This document shows positions 9,511 through 54,580 of a DNA stretch of 64,000 nucleotides, piece by piece. Location of the stretch: contig NZ_SMBP01000002.1 in NCBI RefSeq assembly GCF_004341945.1, positions 1 through 64,000 of the forward strand, given 5' to 3'. Source of the stretch: Longicatena caecimuris (GTDB taxonomy: Bacteria > Bacillota_I > Bacilli_A > Erysipelotrichales > Erysipelotrichaceae). Position numbers and translations under genes: made by a program. Position 1 is the stretch's first letter. Each line of letters starts with the position of its first letter. The notes beneath the pieces were generated by a model, which did no database searches, was not told the origin of the DNA, and worked only from the letters and a program-made list of their open reading frames with translations.

Positions 9511-11700
9511 TTATTTCATCTTGACTTTAATAATCGTATCCTTACTAATGGTTTTCCCCGTCTTAACATTCTGAGAACGCACACTGCCGCTTCCTTCCAT
9601 CTGTACCTCAATATGAGTCAGATTCCAAAAGGCAGTAATATCTTTTTTTGTCCAACCTTTCATATTAGGCATAGCGATTTTCGCCCCATCACTCAGCAAA
9701 AACATACGTTGATTGCTCATAATAGCATCTCCAGCTTTCGGAAATTGTGCTACGATACTATTTCCATTGCCAATAACAACGGTATCTATATCCATTTCCT
9801 TTAATTTCTGTTTTGCATAACGCAATGTGTGATTCACTAAAGATGGCATTGTATACTCTTTCCATTCCACATGATTTTGTTTTTTTGTTTCCTGATTCTG
9901 TCCCTCTTCCCCTGTAATGTTTTCCGCAACTAAAGCAGCCTTCATCACTTCTTTAAAAGGATCACCGGAATAGCTTAAATACTCAGAACTTTCAAACGCA
10001 TAATAAACCATGACTTTGGGATCATCTGCCGGCGCCGCTGCCATAACAGAGTTCGTATAAATATCACCATACTGCCCGTGTTCATTGGCGATCTGTCCAG
10101 TACCGGTCTTTGCGACAATAGAAACATCGTCCATCCTATAACGTATATGACCAGTTCCCATTTTATCGTCAATTACCTGTTTCATAAGTTTCTTTACATA
10201 ATCTGCACTCTTTTTTGAGATTGGCTGTCCTACTTGCTTTGTGTCATACTGTTGAATCGTTTTGCCACTGCTGGCATCAATAATACGTTCCACCACATAT
10301 GGCCGCACCATCTTGCCATCATTTAAAATTGCTGTATAAGCCTGTGCCATTTGCAAAGCTGTTACAGAAATACCTTGACCAAAACCAGTATTCAGCTTTT
10401 CTGAAGCATAAGTAAAGTTCATATTTCCTTTACTGTTTTCCACAAAAGGAATATCAACTTTTTGATTAAATTTAAATTTATTCAATACATAATCCTGATA
10501 GATGCTTGGATCCATATATTTAGTAAGCAATTCACATATAGCGATATTACTGGATACAATAAAACCTTTATCAAATGAAATCGTGCCATAATTCTTGTTT
10601 AATGCATCATAAATCGGCTGAATACCGCCTACTTTTGTAGCACTTCGATAAATTTTTCCTTTTTCATCTGTACCAAAATAAAAGACCCCACTATCATATT
10701 TTTTATTATATGGATAATTACCGCTATCTAATGCGGCTGCGTAAGTAATGCCTTTCATAACCGAACCTGGTTCATATAAGTATTGACTTGGTACATCCAG
10801 ATAATCTTTTATATCGCGCTTATTTAAGTCAAAACTCGGTAAACCAGCCCAGCCTAGCACCTTACCTGTTTCCACTTCCATGACCAGTCCCCAACCACGA
10901 TCGGCTTTAACTTCTTTCATCGTTTTTTTCAGACTGCTTTGTAAAGCAAGTTGTACATTGCGATCTAGGGTAAGATACACATCATTTCCATTCTTCGCAT
11001 ATTTTTTCGTATATTTTGTTCCTGGTAAAATATTGCCATTGGCATCTTTTTGGTAAACCTCTATACCGTCTTCTCCTTGTAAAAAAGTATTCAACGATTT
11101 TTCCAATCCCATCTGTCCTTCGATTTGACCGCTTTGTTCATTATATTGTGCATAACCGATTAAATGCGAAGCAAATGTGCCCGTAGGATAACTGCGTTCC
11201 ACTGACTTGGTAAATGTAATACCAGGTAATTCTAATGCTTCAATGCTCTCTTTTACACTTTTGGAAAGATTTTTTCCTTTTGTTCCTAGTTCAGTCTGAT
11301 ATTGTTTATTATCAATTGCATTTTGTAAGATATCACGTATAGAATCTTCCTTCATATCTAGCTTTGGTGCTAGTAAACGCGCCGTCTTATCCACATTTTT
11401 TACATATGCCGGCACATTGCCGATTCCTTTGCGACTTTTATCCAAAATCGCAACAAGCGTATAGGTATCTTCATCCTGTGCGATTACTTCTCCACCGCGA
11501 TCATAAATCGTCCCCCGGTTTCCTTTTAATACCGTTGTGTTAGAGATATCGGGTTCTTTAAAATCTTTTACATTGACACCACTACGAAAATGCTTCTGCG
11601 TCACCATAGTAAAAAGCACATTTGATAAAATGAGTGTTGCTATTACCATCATGATGATTAGCAATCCTGCCAATGTACGATTACTTCTTCTAGGATTCAT
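9511..11700 (-). CDS. Class B penicillin-binding protein with two PASTA domains (PBP2x/FtsI-like)
   Basis: Septal-type transpeptidase. It is 729 residues: membrane anchor (about 13-32), dimerisation domain, transpeptidase, then two PASTA domains (about 610-665 and 668-729). The catalytic motifs are SVMK in EPGSVMKG, SSN in VSSNIAI, and KTGTGQ. The start at the second ATG (11700) gives AAAGGTGG a 6-base spacing; the ATG at 11706 is too close. The place right after ftsL is that of pbpB/pbp2x, the division PBP. FtsL-like proteins partner this class in the divisome. Two PASTA domains here against one in the next gene suggest division of labour. Confidence 0.93.
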   Translation of the reverse strand: MNPRRSNRTLAGLLIIMMVIATLILSNVLFTMVTQKHFRSGVNVKDFKEPDISNTTVLKGNRGTIYDRGGEVIAQDEDTYTLVAILDKSRKGIGNVPAYVKNVDKTARLLAPKLDMKEDSIRDILQNAIDNKQYQTELGTKGKNLSKSVKESIEALELPGITFTKSVERSYPTGTFASHLIGYAQYNEQSGQIEGQMGLEKSLNTFLQGEDGIEVYQKDANGNILPGTKYTKKYAKNGNDVYLTLDRNVQLALQSSLKKTMKEVKADRGWGLVMEVETGKVLGWAGLPSFDLNKRDIKDYLDVPSQYLYEPGSVMKGITYAAALDSGNYPYNKKYDSGVFYFGTDEKGKIYRSATKVGGIQPIYDALNKNYGTISFDKGFIVSSNIAICELLTKYMDPSIYQDYVLNKFKFNQKVDIPFVENSKGNMNFTYASEKLNTGFGQGISVTALQMAQAYTAILNDGKMVRPYVVERIIDASSGKTIQQYDTKQVGQPISKKSADYVKKLMKQVIDDKMGTGHIRYRMDDVSIVAKTGTGQIANEHGQYGDIYTNSVMAAAPADDPKVMVYYAFESSEYLSYSGDPFKEVMKAALVAENITGEEGQNQETKKQNHVEWKEYTMPSLVNHTLRYAKQKLKEMDIDTVVIGNGNSIVAQFPKAGDAIMSNQRMFLLSDGAKIAMPNMKGWTKKDITAFWNLTHIEVQMEGSGSVRSQNVKTGKTISKDTIIKVKMK

Positions 11701-11712
11701 AGTCATCCACCT

Positions 11713-12033
11713 TTACTCATTGTTCTTCTTGTCCTCATCCCCCATGACAACGACCTGATCCTGATTCGTTTTAATGCCATCTTTTTCTGCCATGCCTAAT
11801 ACACGTTCACGATTTTCTAATTTATTTACTTCGTTTTCTAGACTACTAACAGTTTCTTTTAAGGTTGTTGCTTTTTCTTCTACCTTACTAGCTTCAATGG
11901 AAAGGTTATAGTTATACGATTTCAATCCGATACGCGCACCTAAAAATAACAGCACTGCCAGTGTCAACAGCAGTGTTGCCACACCTTCGATACGGAATCT
12001 TCTTTTTCGTTTTACTAATTTCGCCTTTGCCAT
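11713..12033 (-). CDS. ftsL: FtsL-like divisome protein
   Basis: Small bitopic membrane protein of 106 residues. It has a basic cytoplasmic N-terminus (KRKRRFR), one membrane helix (about residues 19-37), then a coiled-coil stretch (about 45-80) with heptad Leu/Val spacing, and an acidic end. Sequence conservation in FtsL is poor, so the call rests on this architecture and on its place between rsmH and the division PBP. FtsL joins FtsB/DivIC and DivIB and activates FtsW-PBP septal synthesis. The junctions are 6 bases on each side. Confidence 0.82.
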   Translation of the reverse strand: MAKAKLVKRKRRFRIEGVATLLLTLAVLLFLGARIGLKSYNYNLSIEASKVEEKATTLKETVSSLENEVNKLENRERVLGMAEKDGIKTNQDQVVVMGDEDKKNNE

Positions 12034-12039
12034 TGTTAC

Positions 12040-12975
12040 TTACCTTATCCTTTCTATAATTCTTAATTTCGCTGAATGACTGCGGTTGTTTTCCATCAGT
12101 TCTTCTTCTTGCGCGGTAATTGGTTTTTTGTTGATGAGTTTATAGGGCGCTTCTTCCATATCACTTGGTAAGATAGGAATGCGCTTGTCATATTGCTTAG
12201 GACGACTTGCTGTTTGGAAAGCCTCTTTTACGATACGATCTTCCAACGACTGAAAACTGATCACGCAAATTCGTCCATGAGGATTCAGCATTTGCAAGGC
12301 CTCTTGCAACACTTCTTCTAATTCCCGTAATTCATCGTTTACGGCAATCCGTATCGCTTGAAACACCTTTTTCGCAGGATGTCCTTTCTTATTCAGTACC
12401 TTTGCCGGAAGTGATGCCTTAATAACATCTACCAATTCAAAGGTTGTACGAATTGGTTTATCTATGCGTTTCTTTTCAATATTGCGCGCAATCTGTTTAG
12501 CAAACGTCTCTTCTCCATAGGTATAAAAAATCTTTACTAAATCTTGATAGCTCCAAGTGTTTACGATCTCATAAGCATTTAATGCCTGACTTTGATCCAT
12601 TCGCATATCCAATGGAGCATCAAAACGATAAGAAAAGCCGCGTTCTGCTTCATCGAATTGGGGAGAACTTACTCCTAAATCCAGTACCAAACCATCAATT
12701 CTATTTACACCATAAGCCGAAAGTTCTTCTTTCAGATGAGAGAATGGGCTATGGATGCATGTGAAGTTATCTGCCACCTGCAATAGTCTTGGTGTCGATT
12801 CTTCAATCGCACTGGCATCACGGTCAAATGCATATAAGTGACCGTCAGGAATTTGTTTCAAGATCTCACAACTGTGTCCTCCTCGACCCAGCGTTCCATC
12901 CACATAAATGCCATTATGTTGTATATGTAGTCCTTCTATGCTTTCCTGCAGCAAGACACTGTAATGTTTGTTCAT
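12040..12975 (-). CDS. rsmH: 16S rRNA (cytosine-1402-N4)-methyltransferase
   Basis: SAM-dependent methylation of C1402 N4 in 16S rRNA, formerly MraW. It is 311 residues. The SAM-binding segment is VDGTLGRGGHS (about 27-37) and a family signature RGFSYRFDAPLDMRMDQ follows mid-protein. The C-terminal VISFQSLEDRIVK is also typical. The start ATG overlaps the mraZ stop (ATGA), showing translational coupling with the repressor gene. It is the second gene of the mra operon. Confidence 0.96.
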   Translation of the reverse strand: MNKHYSVLLQESIEGLHIQHNGIYVDGTLGRGGHSCEILKQIPDGHLYAFDRDASAIEESTPRLLQVADNFTCIHSPFSHLKEELSAYGVNRIDGLVLDLGVSSPQFDEAERGFSYRFDAPLDMRMDQSQALNAYEIVNTWSYQDLVKIFYTYGEETFAKQIARNIEKKRIDKPIRTTFELVDVIKASLPAKVLNKKGHPAKKVFQAIRIAVNDELRELEEVLQEALQMLNPHGRICVISFQSLEDRIVKEAFQTASRPKQYDKRIPILPSDMEEAPYKLINKKPITAQEEELMENNRSHSAKLRIIERIR

Positions 12976-13403
12976 AATAGAAACTCCGTAAGATTTTCCG
13001 CAATCTCTTCAAATGCAGCATCACCATCTTCATCCAGTGGTTCCCAGCGCTCTTTGGACCAGATTTCCACATGGTTAGCAGCACCGATGATACGGCATTC
13101 TTTTGTCAGATCCGCAAGTTTGATTAATGAGGATGGGATTAAGATCCTTCCCTGTGCATCAATTTCACATTCTGCCGCTTTGCTTGTCATCATACGTACA
13201 AACATGCGGGCATCTTTCTTGGTGGATGGCAATTTCATCAGCTGTTCATAAATGAGCTGCCATTGTTCCTTTGTATAAATACTTAAGCAGCCGTCTAAAC
13301 CGCGTGTGATGATGAGCGTATCGCCTAGTTCTTCACGGAATTTTGCCGGAATGATGATACGCCCTTTTTTATCAATATTGTGTGCGTATTCACCCATGAA
13401 CAT
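12972..13403 (-). CDS. mraZ: MraZ, transcriptional regulator of the dcw operon
   Basis: 143 residues with two tandem SpoVT/AbrB-like (MraZ) domains. The first begins MFMGEYAHNIDKKGRIIIPAKFR and the second contains AECEIDAQGRILIPSSL. MraZ forms ring-shaped oligomers and binds decamer repeats in its own promoter. The open frame can be extended to a GTG at 13418, but that codon is part of the GTGGAGG ribosome binding site and operator. The ATG at 13403 gives the canonical MFMGEY start. Four decamer repeats lie immediately upstream. Confidence 0.96.
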   Translation of the reverse strand: MFMGEYAHNIDKKGRIIIPAKFREELGDTLIITRGLDGCLSIYTKEQWQLIYEQLMKLPSTKKDARMFVRMMTSKAAECEIDAQGRILIPSSLIKLADLTKECRIIGAANHVEIWSKERWEPLDEDGDAAFEEIAENLTEFLL

Positions 13404-13407
13404 GACG

Positions 13408-13478
13408 TTTACCTCCACTTTCCACCACTTTGTGCTACTTTACTCCACCATTATATCGCTTTTTATGCTATTTGTATA
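13408..13478 (-). promoter_or_regulatory. mra promoter and MraZ operator (four decamer repeats)
   Basis: On the minus strand TATACA (13478-13473), a 17-base spacer and TATAAT (13455-13450) form the promoter. Directly after it come GTGGAGTAAA, GTAGCACAAA, GTGGTGGAAA and GTGGAGGTAAA (13448-13408), the last containing the mraZ ribosome binding site. The 10-base period and GTGG cores match the repeat type bound by MraZ in other bacteria. The second repeat is the degenerate one. Binding would cover the transcript start and leader. Confidence 0.82.
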
Positions 13479-13670
13479 GATAATTTCTAACTTTTATTTG
13501 TCGCTTTTTTACAAATGCTTACAAAATCTCCTTTCTTTCCAGTTTTTTCTGAGTATCTTATGTGGCATATAAGTTGAAATACGCAAGAAGCAGATGAATT
13601 CTCTCTTACATCATTTGTAAAACGAATTGCTTCTCAACAACATTTCTGTTTTTCTTATGCTTAACGCCGC

Positions 13671-13695
13671 AAAAAAAGCCATGGTGTTCCATGAC
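13671..13695 (-). terminator. Terminator downstream of the ClC gene
   Basis: Minus-strand GTCATGG / CCATGGC with a 4-base loop and seven T. Confidence 0.8.
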
Positions 13696-13759
13696 TTTAT
13701 CATTTTATTTCATTTCATCTTTTTTACTCCGACAAAACGATTCAGGAAAAAAAGTAACA

Positions 13760-13963
13760 TTATATTTCATCAGCAATGCACAAGCAAATCCACACAACGC
13801 CAAATTGACAAGGTATAAGGTATATAGAAAACAGCAAAAGGTAGGATGCAAGCAAGACATCATGTAACGCCTCATAGGTCATAAAATTAATGGTGCTTCC
13901 TACAATCCATAACATCGATATATACAGAAAACGACTAAGTTTTATTCGTTTTCTAAGTAACAA
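13760..13963 (-). CDS. Possible small membrane protein (67 residues)
   Basis: An open frame starts at a TTG 3 bases after the ClC stop and lies before the terminator at 13671-13695, so it would be on the ClC transcript. It has a basic N-terminus (LRKRIKLSR) and two hydrophobic segments (about 12-30 and 36-62). No ribosome binding site is evident and no family is recognised. It may be a real small protein coupled to clc, or just 3' untranslated sequence. The rest of the interval up to the mra promoter (13479-13670) holds nothing I can support. Confidence 0.25.
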   Translation of the reverse strand: MLLRKRIKLSRFLYISMLWIVGSTINFMTYEALHDVLLASYLLLFSIYLIPCQFGVVWICLCIADEI

Positions 13964-13966
13964 CCA

Positions 13967-15544
13967 TTACGATAACTTTCTAGTACATAATTTTTCTAAA
14001 GCATGTTGCACATAAGGAGCATCCTCATCATTGATCAAAGCCATTAATGTATCTCCGGTAAATAAGACAGTATCTCCCTTAGGAATAATTTCGGCATTTC
14101 CTCGATGAATGCTGATAATCAGACATTTGCCCGGCCAGGCAATATCACTGACCTTTTTCTCACATACCTCGCTGCCGATTTCAATTGCGGCTTCAACGAT
14201 ATGTTTCTTTCCTTGAAACGCATCTAAATTCACACCATTCTTCCATAAAAGCTTATGCAATAAACTTTCATAAATGGGATCACAATTCAATATATTGGCC
14301 GTTAAGTAAGCACATAAGGAAACTAGCGCTAAAGGTAATAAATGCGTCAAAGTGCCACTCATTTCCGCAATCAAAATAATACCGGTAATCGGTGCTCGTA
14401 CGATTGCCGCAAAGAAAGCAGCCATGGCCATGATAATAAAGTTTGCCAGATACATCTCAGGAATCTGAAAATACTGTATGGCGATAAGGCCATAAATGGC
14501 TCCTACAAAACTGCCGAGCACCAACAATGGGAAAAAGATGCCACCCGGTGCTCCACTGCCAAAGCTAGCTAAAGAAAAGATAAATTTTACTACCAGCAAT
14601 AAAATCAAGGTTTTTAAGAGCAATGGCTCTTTTCCACTTAACATCTCGATCATCGTATGCCCACTGCCTAACACTTCAGGAAGGATGAGCATAAGCACAC
14701 CGGCAATCATTAAAGGAATCAAAACACGATAATGGGCTTTTAGTCTTGGCACTTTTTCATACCAATCCTGAAACTTTAACGTCATCTTATTATATAGGAC
14801 ACCACATAAACCACAAATGATGCCTAACAACAGAATGCTTCCATAATAGCCTAATGGTAAAGTTTCTGTGACTACAAAATGAAATGCCGGTTCTAAGCCA
14901 AACACATATTGTGATAGAAAATCACCGGTAACACTGGCACACATGACCGAAACTAAAACAGAAACGGAAAAGTTTTTATGTACCTCTTCCAAGGCAAACA
15001 TGACACCTGCCAAAGGCGCATTAAATGCCGCACTAAGTCCTGCCGCTGCACCACAAGTCAATAATAATTTTTCTTCCATCTTCACGCGATGAAAAATACG
15101 TGACATACCCTTGCCACCCATCGCTCCTAATTGAATACTTGGTCCTTCTCGCCCTAACGATAACCCTCCAAAAGCACATAAGGTCCCAGCAACAATTTTA
15201 TAAGGCAATATTTTATACCATTTTTGATCAAGAAACGAAATGATTTCTCCTTCCACCTGGGGGATACCACTTCCTGAAATCAATGGTTCTTGTTTTAAAC
15301 ACCAGCCAATCAAAACACCAAGCACTAACAAAAAGAGAAACCACCCTATAATATAGAGAAGGTTATCCCAAATCACGGATGCCATAAAGGCAATAAACTG
15401 TTCCGCATAGCCTAATAGCAAACGATAGATAATGGCGATCAATCCGGCAAGTAATCCACAAGCCAAGCCTTCCATGATCAACACATATTTAAAATTTCCT
15501 TCACTCTCTAAAATATGACGAGTACTGCCCTTCTCCTTTTTCAT
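13967..15544 (-). CDS. ClC-family chloride transporter with C-terminal TrkA_C domain
   Basis: 525 residues: a hydrophobic ClC core of many helices (about 25-430), then a soluble RCK_C/TrkA_C-type domain (about 440-520, with KGDTVLFTGDTLMAL). The ion-pathway motifs are GSGIPQ, GREGPSIQ and GGIFFPLLV. The gating glutamate of GREGP is present. The second acidic residue pair in FALEEVHK corresponds to the proton glutamate of exchangers, so Cl-/H+ antiport is more likely than a channel (inference). The start at 15544 has GAGGGAG upstream; the frame extends to a TTG at 15562 that lies before that site. Family members contribute to acid tolerance and anion balance. Confidence 0.93.
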   Translation of the reverse strand: MKKEKGSTRHILESEGNFKYVLIMEGLACGLLAGLIAIIYRLLLGYAEQFIAFMASVIWDNLLYIIGWFLFLLVLGVLIGWCLKQEPLISGSGIPQVEGEIISFLDQKWYKILPYKIVAGTLCAFGGLSLGREGPSIQLGAMGGKGMSRIFHRVKMEEKLLLTCGAAAGLSAAFNAPLAGVMFALEEVHKNFSVSVLVSVMCASVTGDFLSQYVFGLEPAFHFVVTETLPLGYYGSILLLGIICGLCGVLYNKMTLKFQDWYEKVPRLKAHYRVLIPLMIAGVLMLILPEVLGSGHTMIEMLSGKEPLLLKTLILLLVVKFIFSLASFGSGAPGGIFFPLLVLGSFVGAIYGLIAIQYFQIPEMYLANFIIMAMAAFFAAIVRAPITGIILIAEMSGTLTHLLPLALVSLCAYLTANILNCDPIYESLLHKLLWKNGVNLDAFQGKKHIVEAAIEIGSEVCEKKVSDIAWPGKCLIISIHRGNAEIIPKGDTVLFTGDTLMALINDEDAPYVQHALEKLCTRKLS

Positions 15545-42867: not shown

Positions 42868-43638
42868 TTATTCAGTTTTTGCAATCATAAAGTTTTCCGG
42901 TAGCTCTTCATCTTCCTGTAACACACCTTCATCGCATAGGATACCGTCAAAACGACTAAAGTCAGTAAAACTGCAAAAACCTTTGATTTTAGTTTTACTG
43001 GAATCAATAAGCAAATAAGATTGTTGAGCAAGCTGCATGGCTTGCTTTTTTACTGCCAGTGTATCCATTTCTGCTGTATAAACCTTATGACGCAATAAGT
43101 CAATACCGGCACAGCCAATAAACGCAAAATCAAAGTTAAAGCGTTGCAAAGTTTCTAACGCTATGGGGCCCACTGCCATCTTATATTCCGGTATCAGTTT
43201 ACCGCCTACTGCGAATAATTCAGCCACATCACTGTCAAAATGCTCTTGAATCAAGGTACTATGAGTAACGATTTTAATCTTTTTCGTTTGCAAATATGAA
43301 AGCATTGGAAAAATACTGGTACCTCCATCCAAAAAAACACAATCCCCATCCTTGATGAATTCTGCTGCTTGCTTACAAACGCGGTTTTTTTGTTCAAAAT
43401 GCAGCTGTAGGCGATCGAGCATACGGCTTTCATCATTCTTTGACAGGATATCCGTTTTCTGATTTTTTTTGGCTCCGCCATGTATTCGTATCAATAAGCC
43501 TTGCTTTTCCATTTCTTCTAAATCTCGACGTATCGTCACCTCACTCACAGCTAATTCCTGTGACAGATGCCGAACATTCACACACCCTTTGGCATTGAGC
43601 TTAGTCAGGATGTAATCATTTCTTTCATGTGCCAGCAT
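42868..43638 (-). CDS. DeoR-family transcriptional regulator
   Basis: 256 residues. The N-terminal DeoR helix-turn-helix has LSQELAVSEVTIRRDLEEMEKQGLLIRIHGGA and the C-terminal part is a DeoRC sugar-phosphate sensor with DGDCVFLDGGTSIFPML and FIGCAGID. GAGGTG upstream sets the start at 43638. It lies directly downstream of the glycyl radical enzyme, but a terminator separates them, so it has its own transcript. DeoR regulators usually respond to a phosphorylated sugar intermediate of the pathway they sit next to, so it is the likely regulator of that operon. Confidence 0.92.
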   Translation of the reverse strand: MLAHERNDYILTKLNAKGCVNVRHLSQELAVSEVTIRRDLEEMEKQGLLIRIHGGAKKNQKTDILSKNDESRMLDRLQLHFEQKNRVCKQAAEFIKDGDCVFLDGGTSIFPMLSYLQTKKIKIVTHSTLIQEHFDSDVAELFAVGGKLIPEYKMAVGPIALETLQRFNFDFAFIGCAGIDLLRHKVYTAEMDTLAVKKQAMQLAQQSYLLIDSSKTKIKGFCSFTDFSRFDGILCDEGVLQEDEELPENFMIAKTE

Positions 43639-43721
43639 GTACTTCACCTCAATATCTTGTTTCATTATACTATAAATTTGTTCTTTTGCGTATCCAACGC
43701 GAAGAAATAACACACAATGGA

Positions 43722-43777
43722 TAAAAATAAAAGGAAAGTCTTACGCGTTCATCCATCTGATTTTAGCAAGACTTTCC
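43722..43777 (-). terminator. Terminator of the glycyl radical enzyme operon
   Basis: Minus-strand GGAAAGTCTT (43777-43768) / AAGACTTTCC (43742-43733) with a 25-base loop, followed by TTTTATTTTT. Confidence 0.78.
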
Positions 43778-43784
43778 TAGATTG

Positions 43785-46214
43785 CTAACAAGTTATTTGA
43801 TTTTCCGTGCGAGCAATAATGGCTTCTTGTGCTTGTGGCATCAAAGAGATGAATTGTGCACAATATCCGGCTACACGTACGATTAAATCGCTATGCTTTT
43901 GCGGATGTTTCTGCGCATCACGCAAGGTTTGGCTGTCAACGACATTAAACTGATTATGATAAATGCCTTTGCGTGCAGATACATACAGAAAGTCAACAAA
44001 CTTTTTTAAATTTTCATCTCCCTGCAATGCCGCAGGTGCAAAACGCATATTTAACAATTGCCCGGCAGCCACCATATGATTTGGCAATTTTGCTACCGAA
44101 TTAATAACCGCAGTAGGTCCTTGGGTATCACTTCCCTGTGTTGGTGAACACCCTTCATTTAAAGGAGTCCCGGCATAACGCCCATCCGGAGTTGCCCCTA
44201 CCACAAACCCATTTGGTACATAAGAGGTGATATTACTAGTAGACATCGTATAACAGCTTACCTTTGGCCCTTTTCCTTTACGCAGCGTTTCATAATCAGA
44301 CAATAAAGCAAGATAAGAATAGAAAACATCCGCTACGATCTTATCAACCTCATCCTGATCATTGCCAAATTTAGCAGCCTTTTTAACAAGCTTATGAATC
44401 TTACGACTTGCTTCTGTTTGCCAATTATCATGCATGGCGGCAAGTAATTCTTTCATGGTAAATCGTTTATCTTCAAAGACCAACTTTTTTATTGCATAAA
44501 GTGAATTTCCAACGACACTGGGTCCAATATTAGATTGTGATATCACATCATAGCGGCATCCGCCTTCTTTTAAAGTCTTCCCTAATTTTAAGGAATCTTG
44601 AATCAGACAGCTAGCAAAAGGATCGGCATCATAAACAGCTAATGAAGCATCACAGATAGCATCACATTGTACACTGATGTCGGAATAAAACTTTAAATAG
44701 GTCTTCCAAGCCTGCCACAGCTCTTCATAATTTTGGAAATCGACAAAGGCTTCCTCACTTGCTGTATATGGCAACATACGGATACCACTTGCTGGATCAT
44801 AGCCATTGTGCAACATGATTTCTAACACTTTTCCCCAGTTAACATAGGTCATGCCCGTAGCTCGATGGCCATATTTACCAGGTACACCGGTTTCCACGCA
44901 ACCAATCGGACAATAATCCAAGGCATCTTCTTTAGGAATGCCCAAAGAAAGCAGACCGGCCACTGCTGTTTCATCATGAAACATACTCGGCATGCCACAG
45001 CCGGTGCGAATAAGCTTAGCGCATGCCTCAACAAAAGAACGTGGAGAATCCTTATGGTAACGTGCCGAAAAATTAGGTTCTGCCAGAGAGCATAAATGCA
45101 TCGCCTCAATACATAAATAGGATAATGTGTTTGTGCCATCTTTTCCATTCGGCATAAGACCACCCACAACCAGATTGGAATAGAGTGGATATCCTTGTGA
45201 AAACCGTGTATGGCCATATGGACGTACCTTATTACAAGAGGAATTCATAAGGAACATATGCGTGATGATTTCTAATGCATTTTCCTTTGTTAAGATTCCT
45301 TTCTTTATATCCTGCTCATATAAGTCCAGCATATATTGATCAAAACGTCCATAACAGAAAGAATGTCCATTGCTCTCGATCATTTGCCAGATATGAATCA
45401 GATAGACGATTTCACAACCTTCATGAAAACTACGTGCTCCCTGTTCTAACATGGTTGCGGCCATATCACTTAATTCTCGATATTCCATCTGTTTCGCAAT
45501 ATCTTTACATGTTTTGGCCTTTTCCTTAAAATAGATCGCAAATCGCTTACAGTATTGCAAAGCTGCCTCTAAAACTAGAATGACTGCCTCATAGTAAGCT
45601 TTTGAAGAAGCACTGATGTCATCTTTTTGCAATGCTGTTTGTGCCTGTTGAATGAAATAGCGAAAACCATAACGTAAAACCATGGCATGATCAGGTACGA
45701 TATGTCCATCCCCACTCATGGAGATACCACCACGATGCAATACTCCCTGTTTCTCTGCCAAACGGATATCATCACTTATATGACGGTTTACTTCATCTTC
45801 ATGGGTATGGGACAACCAAAAAGGCGCGATGTCTTTGATGTCCTGCTTTACCTGTTCACTGATGGTAAATACATCACCATCGCGCTGAGCAAAGCTGTCT
45901 AATTCATCTAACACCCACTGTATGGAATATTCAGGATAAATCGGAGCGGCAAAATTGCACGATGCCATATTTCCAAAGATCAAAGAATCCTCTTCTGCAT
46001 AAATACTCATATGTGTAAGGGTATAAGCAAATGCCTGCGCTTTGCGCAAAATATAAGGTTCTCCTTCATTGTTCTGAAATACTTGTGTATACAGTTTTGC
46101 CCGCTCACTGCAAATGGAAGCCTTACGTTTTTCCATCTTATTGCGCAAACGCTTTATACGTGCTCGATCAAAACGTTGTTCCTGTAGTGGCTCTATCAGC
46201 CAATCTTCCTTCAT
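43785..46214 (-). CDS. Glycyl radical enzyme, PflD/YbiW-like
   Basis: 809 residues. The glycyl radical loop near the C-terminus is RVAGYCAQF (Gly783) and the active-site loop is GCVETGVPGKYGHR (Cys439, Glu441). SGDGHIVPD and ESNGHSFCYGRFDQ carry the two His that dehydratase-type members use. The Asp that B12-independent glycerol and propanediol dehydratases have 14 residues after the Cys is Thr453 here, so a diol dehydratase is unlikely. The GCVE..VPGK..R.TGM pattern, from memory, fits the PflD/YbiW clade. True pyruvate formate-lyase is excluded since it has two adjacent Cys. The start at 46214 has AGAAGGTGAG upstream. It lies behind the DeoC-like aldolase gene. No radical-SAM activase gene is in the window, though one is required. 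Confidence 0.88.
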   Translation of the reverse strand: MKEDWLIEPLQEQRFDRARIKRLRNKMEKRKASICSERAKLYTQVFQNNEGEPYILRKAQAFAYTLTHMSIYAEEDSLIFGNMASCNFAAPIYPEYSIQWVLDELDSFAQRDGDVFTISEQVKQDIKDIAPFWLSHTHEDEVNRHISDDIRLAEKQGVLHRGGISMSGDGHIVPDHAMVLRYGFRYFIQQAQTALQKDDISASSKAYYEAVILVLEAALQYCKRFAIYFKEKAKTCKDIAKQMEYRELSDMAATMLEQGARSFHEGCEIVYLIHIWQMIESNGHSFCYGRFDQYMLDLYEQDIKKGILTKENALEIITHMFLMNSSCNKVRPYGHTRFSQGYPLYSNLVVGGLMPNGKDGTNTLSYLCIEAMHLCSLAEPNFSARYHKDSPRSFVEACAKLIRTGCGMPSMFHDETAVAGLLSLGIPKEDALDYCPIGCVETGVPGKYGHRATGMTYVNWGKVLEIMLHNGYDPASGIRMLPYTASEEAFVDFQNYEELWQAWKTYLKFYSDISVQCDAICDASLAVYDADPFASCLIQDSLKLGKTLKEGGCRYDVISQSNIGPSVVGNSLYAIKKLVFEDKRFTMKELLAAMHDNWQTEASRKIHKLVKKAAKFGNDQDEVDKIVADVFYSYLALLSDYETLRKGKGPKVSCYTMSTSNITSYVPNGFVVGATPDGRYAGTPLNEGCSPTQGSDTQGPTAVINSVAKLPNHMVAAGQLLNMRFAPAALQGDENLKKFVDFLYVSARKGIYHNQFNVVDSQTLRDAQKHPQKHSDLIVRVAGYCAQFISLMPQAQEAIIARTENQITC

Positions 46215-46291
46215 TGCTCTCACCTTCTTTAATAATTATAACATCCATATACGAAAGACAGAAAGCACAACACTCTCTGTCTATCATTTTC

Positions 46292-47005
46292 TTATTTTTT
46301 ATCCAATCCTAAAACTACCGGTACAGAACGATAGCCCACGCCCATACGATCAATGCCCATATCAATGAGTTGTAAGAAGTGTTCTCTTGTACGAATACAG
46401 CCACTTCCCTTCACCTTACATTTTCCATTAACTTCTTCCATCATGACTTTAATGATTTCACAAGTTGCCCCATGTGCCTCATATCCAGTTAAAAAACCGG
46501 TACTCGTTTTTACAAAATCAACACCTGCTTCTATGCAGCATTTACAAGTCTTTCTAACCTGTTCTTCATTTAAAGCATCGGTTTCAAAAATAACTTTTAA
46601 TGCTCTTCCATAGGAATGTGCTAATTCGGCACATGCTTTTAAATCCGCTGTAACAGCATCATATTTTCCACTGCGAATATGCCCGAAATTAGCGACAACA
46701 TCAATTTCCTTTACGGTGTCATATCGAGCAACAATTTCAATTTGTTTTAATTTAGATTCAGTAGAACTTGTGCCAAAAGGAAAATCACATACAGGACAAA
46801 GCATCGTATCGCTGCCCTTTACGATAGGTTCACATAAATCCATATATCCCGGGTTGATGCAGATGGTTGCACAGCCAAGTTCCACACCATCTTTTGTTAG
46901 AGCGATGATTTCTTCTTCCGTAAACTCTGGTTTCAAAACCGAATAATCAATATAGGCTGCTAATTCTTTTACTGTCATTTCATTTGCTTTTTTGTTTGGT
47001 TTCAT
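46292..47005 (-). CDS. DeoC-like class I aldolase with altered phosphate site
   Basis: 237 residues, TIM barrel. The Schiff-base lysine is K166 (FVKTSTG), the second lysine is K199 and the Asp is D102, so aldolase chemistry should be intact. Compared with E. coli deoxyribose-phosphate aldolase, residues that hold the substrate phosphate are changed: Lys172 is Phe171, Gly205 is Cys203, and the GxSS loop is GVGYR (222-226). The substrate is therefore probably not deoxyribose 5-phosphate. There are twelve cysteines, unusual for the family. The start is uncertain: ATG 47005 has no ribosome binding site, while ATG 46978 (M10) lies 1 base after the stop of a short upstream ORF and matches the family start better. 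It is the first gene of an operon with the glycyl radical enzyme. Confidence 0.86.
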   Translation of the reverse strand: MKPNKKANEMTVKELAAYIDYSVLKPEFTEEEIIALTKDGVELGCATICINPGYMDLCEPIVKGSDTMLCPVCDFPFGTSSTESKLKQIEIVARYDTVKEIDVVANFGHIRSGKYDAVTADLKACAELAHSYGRALKVIFETDALNEEQVRKTCKCCIEAGVDFVKTSTGFLTGYEAHGATCEIIKVMMEEVNGKCKVKGSGCIRTREHFLQLIDMGIDRMGVGYRSVPVVLGLDKK

Positions 47006-47030
47006 ATGTTATTTCTAGAGAATCGTACAT
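46980..47030 (-). CDS. Possible 16-codon leader peptide (uORF) before the aldolase
   Basis: ATG at 47030 has AGGAGGAAGGAGA just upstream, the only strong ribosome binding site of the region. It encodes MYDSLEITYETKQKSK and stops with TGA at 46982-46980, 1 base before the aldolase's second ATG (46978). An inverted repeat GAGAAT-CGTAC-ATTCTC (47018-47034) covers its start and binding site, which could be a DNA operator or an RNA hairpin. Translation of the aldolase may depend on coupling to this ORF. Confidence 0.45.
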   Translation of the reverse strand: MYDSLEITYETKQKSK

Positions 47031-47304
47031 TCTCCTTCCTCCTTACTTGTATAATAGAACATTTCCAATCATTTGTAAAGCACTTTTTGTTGTTTTATTT
47101 ACGTTTTAATGTTCGATTGCTTTCGTTTTTAGCATTTCTCGATATTTTCCCTTACCCTCTTCATCAGCCTCTTTCTTTTCTATTCCACATAAGATACATG
47201 TTATTCACAAAATTGTCATAAATCTATGATTAAATACGCGAGAAAAAACAATATGGTGTATAATAAGGATAATAAACGCTTGTTCACCTAGGAGGTAGGA
47301 CATT

Positions 47305-52843: not shown

Positions 52844-54580
52844 ATGAAATCATGGACAAAGGATGCAGTGTTTTATCATATCTATCCACTAGGTTTTTGT
52901 GGATGTGAGCAGTTCCATCAAGAGCAACAAACAAGTCGTATTTTAAAAATTAAAGAATGGATTCCCCATTTACAAAAAATGCATATCAATGCCTTATATT
53001 TAGGGCCTGTATTTGAAAGTTATGAACATGGTTATGATACAAGTGATTATCGCAAAGTAGACAATCGGTTAGGCAGCAATGCTGATTTTCGAGAAGTTTG
53101 TGATGCTTTGCATAAAGCCGGCATTCGCATCGTATTAGATGGCGTTTTCAATCATGTAGGGCGTTATTTTTGGGCATTTCGTGATGTTATGGAAAAGCGT
53201 GAACAATCCCCTTACTGCAATTGGTTCCATAATCTAAACTTTCAATGGGATAACCCCATGCATGATGGATTTACCTATGATACATGGGAAGGACATTACA
53301 ATTTAGTTAAATTGAATTTACAAAATGAAGAAGTTGTTCAGTATTTATTAGAAAGTATTGCGATGTGGATGGATGATTTCCACATTGATGGTTTGCGCTT
53401 AGATGCTGCAGATTGTATTGACCCTGCCTTCTTTCGACGCTTAAAACAATTTTGTGAAGAACATAATCCTGATTTTTGGTTAATGGGTGAGATTATCCAT
53501 GGTGATTATAACCGTTGGGCAAATCCGGATATGTTAGATTCAGTAACCAACTATGAATGTTATAAAGGTTTGTATTCTTCACACAACGAAAAGAATTATT
53601 TTGAAATTGCTTATTCCTTAAACCGTCAGTTTGGTGGTAATGGAGGTATTTATAAGGATCTAGTTCTATATGATTTTGTGGATAATCATGATGTAAATCG
53701 TTTAGCTAGTACGGTAAAGGAAGAACGTGATCTGGCAAATATTTATACCATGTTATATGCAATGCCGGGGATTCCATCAATTTATTATGGTAGTGAATAT
53801 GGCATCAAAGGCACAAAACATGATGGCAGTGATGCCGATATCCGCCCTTGTTTAACTTTGACAGAGCTTGCGACAGAAAATACGGCATTATTTTCTCATA
53901 TCTGCAAACTGGGAAAAGCTTATGACGCTTTACCGGCCTTAAAGCATGGCGATTATCAGCAAGTCATCGTGCGCAATCAACAGTTCGTCTTCGCTCGTAA
54001 AACGGCTGAACAATGCGTATATGCAATTTTCAATGTCAGTGATGAAAGTGCTGATATTGATTTCCCAGTACAATCTGCACATTTATATGACATGTTAAAT
54101 GAAAAAGCCTACAATTGCTTGGAACATCATTTTATCATTTCAATGCCTGCTAAAAGCTCCATGTTGCTGGTGGAGAAGGAAGATGTAGCAGCTGTTTCTT
54201 CAACACCAAGTGATAAAGCAGTAACCTTGCACAACACAGAAACACAAAATGAAACTACGACGAAAAAGAATGCATCTGCGCAGGATGTAACAGCTATGCC
54301 AAAAGTTCCGCTTCCAATAGCAGATGGTTATCAAGAAGAAGATGCATCACAGCTTGCCATAACAACACCTTCTATTCCTCTTGGCGTTTATCAACACTAC
54401 AAAGGAAAACGTTATGCTTTATTATATATTGCAAAACATTCAGAAAATGAAGAAGCTTACGCGGTTTATCGACAGCTGTATGGGGATGGTAAGGTATGGG
54501 TAAGACCATTGCGTATGTTTGTTGAAGAGATTGAAGTTGATGGTGAGAAAACACCTCGTTTTACGTATCTTAAACCCTAG
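52844..54580 (+). CDS. GH13 alpha-amylase-family enzyme fused to DUF1653
   Basis: 578 residues. The GH13 barrel spans about 1-370, with GVFNHVG (region I), GLRLDAAD (nucleophile Asp187), LMGEII (acid Glu216) and FVDNHD (Asp283). A beta domain runs to about 445, a low-complexity Ser/Thr linker (about 450-500) follows, and the C-terminus (about 513-578) is a DUF1653 domain (GVYQHYKGKRYALLYIAKHSE ... VYRQLYGDGKVWVRPLRMF). There is no signal peptide, so it acts inside the cell, probably on maltodextrins or short alpha-glucans. DUF1653 normally occurs as a small free protein; its fusion to an amylase is unusual. Nearby malQ (62.7 kb) suggests glycogen or maltodextrin use. Confidence 0.9.
   Translation: MKSWTKDAVFYHIYPLGFCGCEQFHQEQQTSRILKIKEWIPHLQKMHINALYLGPVFESYEHGYDTSDYRKVDNRLGSNADFREVCDALHKAGIRIVLDGVFNHVGRYFWAFRDVMEKREQSPYCNWFHNLNFQWDNPMHDGFTYDTWEGHYNLVKLNLQNEEVVQYLLESIAMWMDDFHIDGLRLDAADCIDPAFFRRLKQFCEEHNPDFWLMGEIIHGDYNRWANPDMLDSVTNYECYKGLYSSHNEKNYFEIAYSLNRQFGGNGGIYKDLVLYDFVDNHDVNRLASTVKEERDLANIYTMLYAMPGIPSIYYGSEYGIKGTKHDGSDADIRPCLTLTELATENTALFSHICKLGKAYDALPALKHGDYQQVIVRNQQFVFARKTAEQCVYAIFNVSDESADIDFPVQSAHLYDMLNEKAYNCLEHHFIISMPAKSSMLLVEKEDVAAVSSTPSDKAVTLHNTETQNETTTKKNASAQDVTAMPKVPLPIADGYQEEDASQLAITTPSIPLGVYQHYKGKRYALLYIAKHSENEEAYAVYRQLYGDGKVWVRPLRMFVEEIEVDGEKTPRFTYLKP

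Follow-up and report, generated by a model that had tools for sequence, protein, structure and literature searches.

Which bond does a sugar-type glycyl radical enzyme (GRE) cut when the aldolase encoded beside it is of the deoxyribose-phosphate aldolase (DERA) type? YbiW and PflD are Escherichia coli GREs whose role has only recently been tied to anhydro-sugar breakdown, in which phosphorylation by a PTS is followed by conversion to 1-deoxyfructose-6-phosphate by YbiW or PflD (PMC12441222). This review and the PDB titles 8id7 (YbiW with 1,5-anhydroglucitol-6-phosphate) and 8id0 (a PflD with 1,5-anhydromannitol-6-phosphate) bear out the statement, in the original prediction for the locus described here, that the E. 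coli relatives use anhydro sugar phosphates. The same prediction had placed ybiW and pflD beside fsaA and fsaB; ybiW–ybiY does adjoin fsaA, whereas pflD–pflC, although in the fsaB cluster, is separated from fsaB by frwB, frwC and ptsA. Here we analysed a 64,000-nucleotide stretch of Longicatena caecimuris DNA (NZ_SMBP01000002.1, positions 1 to 64,000; hereafter referred to as the window), in which a GRE gene lies beside the gene for a DERA-family aldolase (hereafter DEOC). The pair, whose radical enzyme is of an oxygen-sensitive kind, is real and uncharacterised, and is conserved in many anaerobes of the gut type. It seems to represent a further, new branch of the anhydro-sugar breakdown that anaerobic bacteria were recently shown to carry out. 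The combination of a GRE with a class I aldolase is a known theme, and its DERA-type version is new.

Both genes were found where they had been predicted, at 43785–47005, and form a two-gene operon in the order DEOC then GRE. The features of the region are as follows.

47051..47079, minus strand: promoter-like site upstream of the aldolase gene (TTTACA, 17 nt, TATTAT; 10/12 consensus match)
46292..47005, minus strand: DEOC, a DERA-family class I aldolase of 237 residues (TIGR00126, 172 bits against a cut-off of 117)
43785..46223, minus strand: GRE of clade A, 812 residues as called (Pfam PFL-like and Gly_radical domains, TIGR01774 and tree placement)
43722..43778, minus strand: intrinsic terminator directly 3′ of the GRE gene (13-bp stem, then a U-run)
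42868..43713, minus strand: DeoR-type sugar-operon regulator (HTH_DeoR and DeoRC domains)

The GRE gene is called from a GTG at 46223, and its likelier start is the ATG at 46214 behind GAAGG, which gives 809 residues; the gap between DEOC and the GRE is 68–77 bp. The terminator folds with −19.4 kcal/mol (z −3.9), a stability reached by 0/200 shuffles. Its position directly after the GRE therefore limits the operon to two genes, and the DeoR-type regulator, whose likelier start is the ATG at 43638, probably forms its own transcript. Orthologues of this regulator adjoin the DEOC/GRE pair in four loci (L042, L044, L053 and L054) and DEOC in three (L295, L301 and L306). Matches such as the promoter-like site are common by chance (22 found, against 19.3 expected in shuffles). 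Between 47005 and 47045, a strong ribosome-binding site precedes an out-of-frame ATG at 47030, 25 bases before the aldolase start, which perhaps marks a short leader or translational coupling. Within the window, no activase, transporter, kinase or PTS adjoins the pair and no cre (catabolite repression) site was detected, and a search near the operon returned no known RNA element. Elsewhere in the window (52844–54580), an alpha-amylase domain is fused to a C-terminal DUF1653 domain.

The GRE belongs to the PFL2/glycerol dehydratase type (TIGR01774, 706.8 bits against a cut-off of 678.2), with the glycyl loop RVAGY at residues 783–787 (Gly786) and GCVE at 441–444 (Cys442 and Glu444). The active-site table further contains His174 and His287, and Thr456 in place of Asp447 of the diol/glycerol dehydratases (C. 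butyricum numbering), a replacement present in 37/37 clade-A sequences as well as in the window GRE. A radical enzyme with GCVE and two histidines and without the diol dehydratase aspartate, as first described from the sequence, is thus what the residues show. In a tree of 90 sequences, built by quick search with support given as SH-aLRT without bootstrap, clade A forms a single branch (SH-aLRT 100), and clades A and B together form a separate branch (SH-aLRT 100) with YbiW and clade C outside. The GRE lies outside both the YbiW and the PflD branches, and hence outside the anhydrohexitol-6-phosphate lyase branches. The outcome that the original prediction had set against itself, a GRE grouping in a clade whose known activity is unrelated, was not seen in the tree, in which clade A stands alone. 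The structures and literature searched contained no solved or characterised clade-A member. The structure model of the GRE is of moderate quality (mean pLDDT 77) and matches the diol dehydratases and YbiW about equally well, and therefore does not decide between these two families.

Clade-A homologues occur in 27/196 family genomes and are 59–72% identical to the window GRE. An identity gap separates them from a group that is 37–42% identical, several loci of which have an adjoining FSA gene. When each species was represented by a single genome, a scan placed named clade-A homologues in the Erysipelotrichaceae, Sporomusaceae and Selenomonadaceae. The same genome also encodes a second sugar-type GRE with its own activase and FSA genes (G000:C6, locus L067, 6331–10287); it is 34% identical to the window GRE and is joined to PflD by long branches in the tree.

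The AlphaFold model of DEOC is a confident DERA barrel (pLDDT 93; TM 0.87 to L. brevis DERA). We compared 69 DEOC homologues with 11 ordinary homologues, and found that D102, K137, K166, T169 and K199 are invariant in the former and that D20 varies once. The catalytic residues of DERA, Schiff-base Lys166, Lys199 and Asp102, are thus kept in 69/69 homologues and in the window, consistent with the initial reading that the aldolase retains both lysines and the aspartate. By contrast, the phosphate-binding residues are not those of DERA: the GG and the serine loop, kept in 11/11 ordinary homologues, are changed from KAAGG to KGSGC, with Cys in 51/69 DEOC homologues, and to G-[Y/F]-[K/R]-S, with Tyr/Phe in 68/69 and Lys/Arg in 65/69. 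The window DEOC carries GSGC and GVGYRS, and the family form of the serine loop is [VI]GY[KR]S. Two of the three substitutions originally read as a rewired site, Gly to Cys and the SS loop to GY, are therefore family-specific, whereas the third, Lys to Phe, is no sign of rewiring, since the Phe (KTSTGF) is also found in 9/11 ordinary Gram-positive-type DeoC proteins. Three further proteins of the deoC family encoded by this genome have the same Phe, and on both counts we rejected it as a sign of lost phosphate binding. Phosphate binding might instead have passed to the conserved Lys/Arg226, and the rebuilt loop leaves open a phosphorylated or an unphosphorylated substrate. For proteins annotated as deoxyribose-phosphate aldolase that carry the GY[KR]S loop, a role in nucleoside breakdown should not be assumed.

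The pairing of this GRE with DEOC is far beyond chance. DEOC is present in 27/27 clade-A genomes and in 20/169 others (Fisher P ~9e-21 over the 196 family genomes, a value inflated by kinship), and at the genus level, at which kinship inflates the value less, in 16/16 against 9/44 (P ~1e-8). The genome neighbourhoods of the GRE homologues, proposed at the outset as a check, placed DEOC on the same fragment as the clade-A GRE in 24/35 loci; in most clade-A loci it lies directly upstream on the same strand, with a gap of 4–154 bp. Of the 11 genomes lacking this adjacency, ten have DEOC elsewhere and the remaining one is a draft genome of small size. The partner is DEOC rather than FSA, and both lie nearby in one clade-A locus (Pelosinus, L092). 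The use of a DeoC-type aldolase in this role, first suspected from a single locus, thus extends to many species of three families, in which the DERA type replaces FSA; the literature searched yielded no pairing of a GRE with this aldolase type. A radical-SAM activase adjoins the GRE in 13/35 clade-A loci. The branch holding the window has no adjacent activase, and the genome's five activase-like genes include no orthologue of the activases beside clade-A GREs.

Two operons of Negativicutes describe the likely setting. In Pectinatus (L090) the order is DEOC, mannose-family PTS IIA-IIB-IIC-IID, GRE, activase and aldo-keto reductase, and in L223 it is mannose-family PTS IIA-IIB-IIC-IID, GRE, activase, DeoR and DEOC; the PTS in these operons argues for an imported, phosphorylated, sugar-like substrate. 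Near the Pelosinus pair are a glucitol-type PTS, FSA, a relative of D-erythrulose-4-phosphate isomerase and a transketolase, and transketolase genes also lie near DEOC or the GRE in L094, L185, L222 and L307. The isomerase relative and these five transketolase loci fit a tetrose-phosphate product, and the aldo-keto reductases that adjoin DEOC or the GRE in L090, L188 and L192 fit the release of an aldehyde.

GREs of this type take a hydrogen from an OH-bearing carbon and cut the neighbouring C–O bond. The GRE and DEOC may well catalyse consecutive steps in the anaerobic catabolism of a phosphorylated sugar or polyol, C–O cleavage and then retro-aldol cleavage; both reactions and their order, like the regiochemistry and the particular substrate discussed below, are what we infer, as opposed to observe. 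A radical-SAM activase encoded elsewhere in the genome would put the radical on Gly786, Cys442 would abstract hydrogen from an OH-bearing carbon, and the neighbouring C–O bond, of a ring ether or a hydroxyl, would break as in YbiW and PflD. The GRE product would be a β-hydroxy carbonyl sugar phosphate, on which DEOC would form a Schiff base through Lys166 for DERA-type retro-aldol cleavage. Cleaving a 2-deoxyaldose phosphate in this way would release acetaldehyde and leave a shortened aldose phosphate, which for a six-carbon substrate would be erythrose 4-phosphate.

The central fact, as read from the sequences, is that clades A and B have near-identical pockets, with few of the listed positions differing (Tyr/Trp336, Tyr/Trp451, Gln/Leu790 and Cys/Ser290), and yet different aldolases. 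DERA uses a two-carbon aldehyde as donor, whereas FSA uses hydroxyacetone. A carbonyl placed on C2, as by YbiW and PflD, gives a 1-deoxyketose, which is an FSA-type substrate, and a carbonyl on C1 gives a 2-deoxyaldose, which is a DERA-type substrate. The donor difference therefore turns the partner swap into a sharp prediction of which C–O bond is cut: clade A would remove the C2 oxygen and form a 2-deoxyaldose phosphate, not a 1-deoxyketose phosphate. We put this regiochemistry forward tentatively; going by known aldolase chemistry, the swap would be best explained by a change in the bond that is cut. The full route, from a PTS-fed anhydro-sugar or polyol phosphate through a 2-deoxyaldose phosphate to cleavage by a repurposed DERA, joined in some lineages to HxlA/HxlB and corrinoid modules, is possible although still doubtful, and 2,5-anhydrohexitol 6-phosphate is a candidate substrate that we regard as a long shot.

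The swap could also leave the GRE product unchanged. Clade A would then yield a 1-deoxyketose phosphate as YbiW and PflD do, and the DEOC donor would have shifted to hydroxyacetone, replacing FSA. This agrees with the near-identity of the clade-A and clade-B pockets and with the FSA and glycerol dehydrogenase of clade-B operons, and the DEOC loop could have changed to fit a substrate of different geometry, but we think it unlikely: DERA-family enzymes typically accept acetaldehyde and simple ketones as donors, and 44/47 of these genomes have FSA genes, so there is little need for a DERA in that role. DEOC as a transaldolase stand-in was rejected on related counts (TAL/FSA genes in 44/47 DEOC genomes against 65/149 others); such genes are also present in 12/16 DEOC-bearing Negativicutes checked. 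A replacement of the oxidative pentose phosphate path was likewise rejected, since G6PDH is unassociated with DEOC (13/47 against 46/149, P 0.72). The locus would need no new chemistry at all if its GRE were an anhydrohexitol-phosphate lyase of the YbiW type and its aldolase an ordinary deoxyribose-phosphate aldolase, as might be read from an NCBIfam deoC call above cut-off and from the closest solved relatives of the GRE, which by sequence are of the YbiW type. This is highly improbable, given that the tree strongly supports a position of the GRE away from the YbiW and PflD branches, that DEOC lacks the phosphate-loop residues of all 11 ordinary homologues, and that four more genes of the deoC family are present in the genome, of which the three with motifs read keep ordinary loops.

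A different question is whether the GRE is the main partner of DEOC. Clade-A GREs are missing from 20/47 DEOC-bearing family genomes and also from some DEOC-bearing Negativicutes, in two of which DEOC lies inside a ribosomal protein operon (L220, 8885–9592; L221, 8830–9552). DEOC adjoins other GREs in L226 and L196. The former (11804–14203) is a third kind, nearest glycerol dehydratase and without the His281/Ser282 pair, and adjoins DEOC and a glucitol-type PTS; the latter (10790–14696) is another uncharacterised GRE of ~756 residues, found also in L069 (3105–7030), with a NanE-like epimerase on one side and an activase on the other, and its L196 cluster adjoins DEOC and HxlA/HxlB. DEOC and HxlA each occur in 47 of the 196 family genomes, of which 40 are shared (P ~3e-27; genus level, ~3e-9). 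Because DEOC occurs without the clade-A GRE, sits in ribosomal operons and tracks HxlA, the GRE is not its sole partner.

DEOC might thus serve mainly with HxlA/HxlB in handling a small aldehyde (formaldehyde or acetaldehyde), the GRE being one of several sources. Besides this co-occurrence, DEOC adjoins HxlA/HxlB in L196, L305 and L312, whether or not a clade-A GRE is present, and one operon (L099, L101, L102 and L105) links the GRE, DEOC, HxlA, HxlB, a NanE-like epimerase, a corrinoid protein, methyltransferases, a corrinoid-reactivating protein and a C-GCAxxG-C-C protein; a loop altered at the phosphate site would also fit a small aldehyde lacking phosphate. However, 7/47 DEOC genomes lack HxlA, the closest Negativicutes operons have a PTS and not HxlA, and the co-occurrence of two sugar genes has many possible causes, so that we consider this reading, too, unlikely. 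What lies behind the DEOC–HxlA link may be the handling of formaldehyde or of methyl groups, the most obvious candidate. The GRE, DEOC and an activase share an operon with a corrinoid protein, methyltransferases and corrinoid reactivation in L127 and L137 as well as in the four loci above, and most of these six stretches also carry HxlA/HxlB.

Compared with DeoC/DERA, DEOC has the same fold and catalytic residues but differs in its GG-to-GC change and GY[KR]S loop, in being extra to ordinary DeoC paralogues and, across the loci inspected, in having no nucleoside genes as neighbours. E. coli deoC itself adjoins yjjI (DUF3029; L323, 1–1603), which we take to encode a glycyl radical protein with the activase YjjW, and so another GRE beside a DERA gene. 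The B12-independent glycerol/1,2-propanediol dehydratases share with clade A the fold, the Cys and Glu, both histidines, Ser288 and Tyr345, whereas clade A lacks Asp447, has Arg454 and Thr456, and occurs in a sugar-PTS context. Clade B (Phytobacter, Klebsiella, Chloroflexota and spirochaetes), the likewise uncharacterised sister of clade A, is 51–58% identical to it with a near-same pocket, but has Trp336, Trp451 and Leu790 and is partnered by FSA, glycerol dehydrogenase, NagB and NagA. Its Enterobacteriaceae operons (L109, L112, L115, L116, L120, L121 and L122), with FSA, GldA, NagB, NagA and PTS genes, perhaps encode an anhydro-aminosugar pathway. YbiW/PflD with FsaA/FsaB, which act on 1,5-anhydroglucitol and 1,5-anhydromannitol via their 6-phosphates, follow the same logic of GRE, class I aldolase and PTS, and share the Gly loop and GCVE or GCIE; Arg454 and Thr456 are common to clade A, clade B and YbiW. 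Clade A nevertheless stands separate, with Tyr345 (a residue shared with glycerol dehydratase and replaced by Ser in YbiW and by Phe in PflD), a different 163–177 segment (H163-x-GGISMSGDGH) and a DERA-type partner. The presence of a related branch in three families, paired there with another aldolase, implies that a second product chemistry exists and hence that a sugar-derived substrate in gut and rumen has been overlooked.
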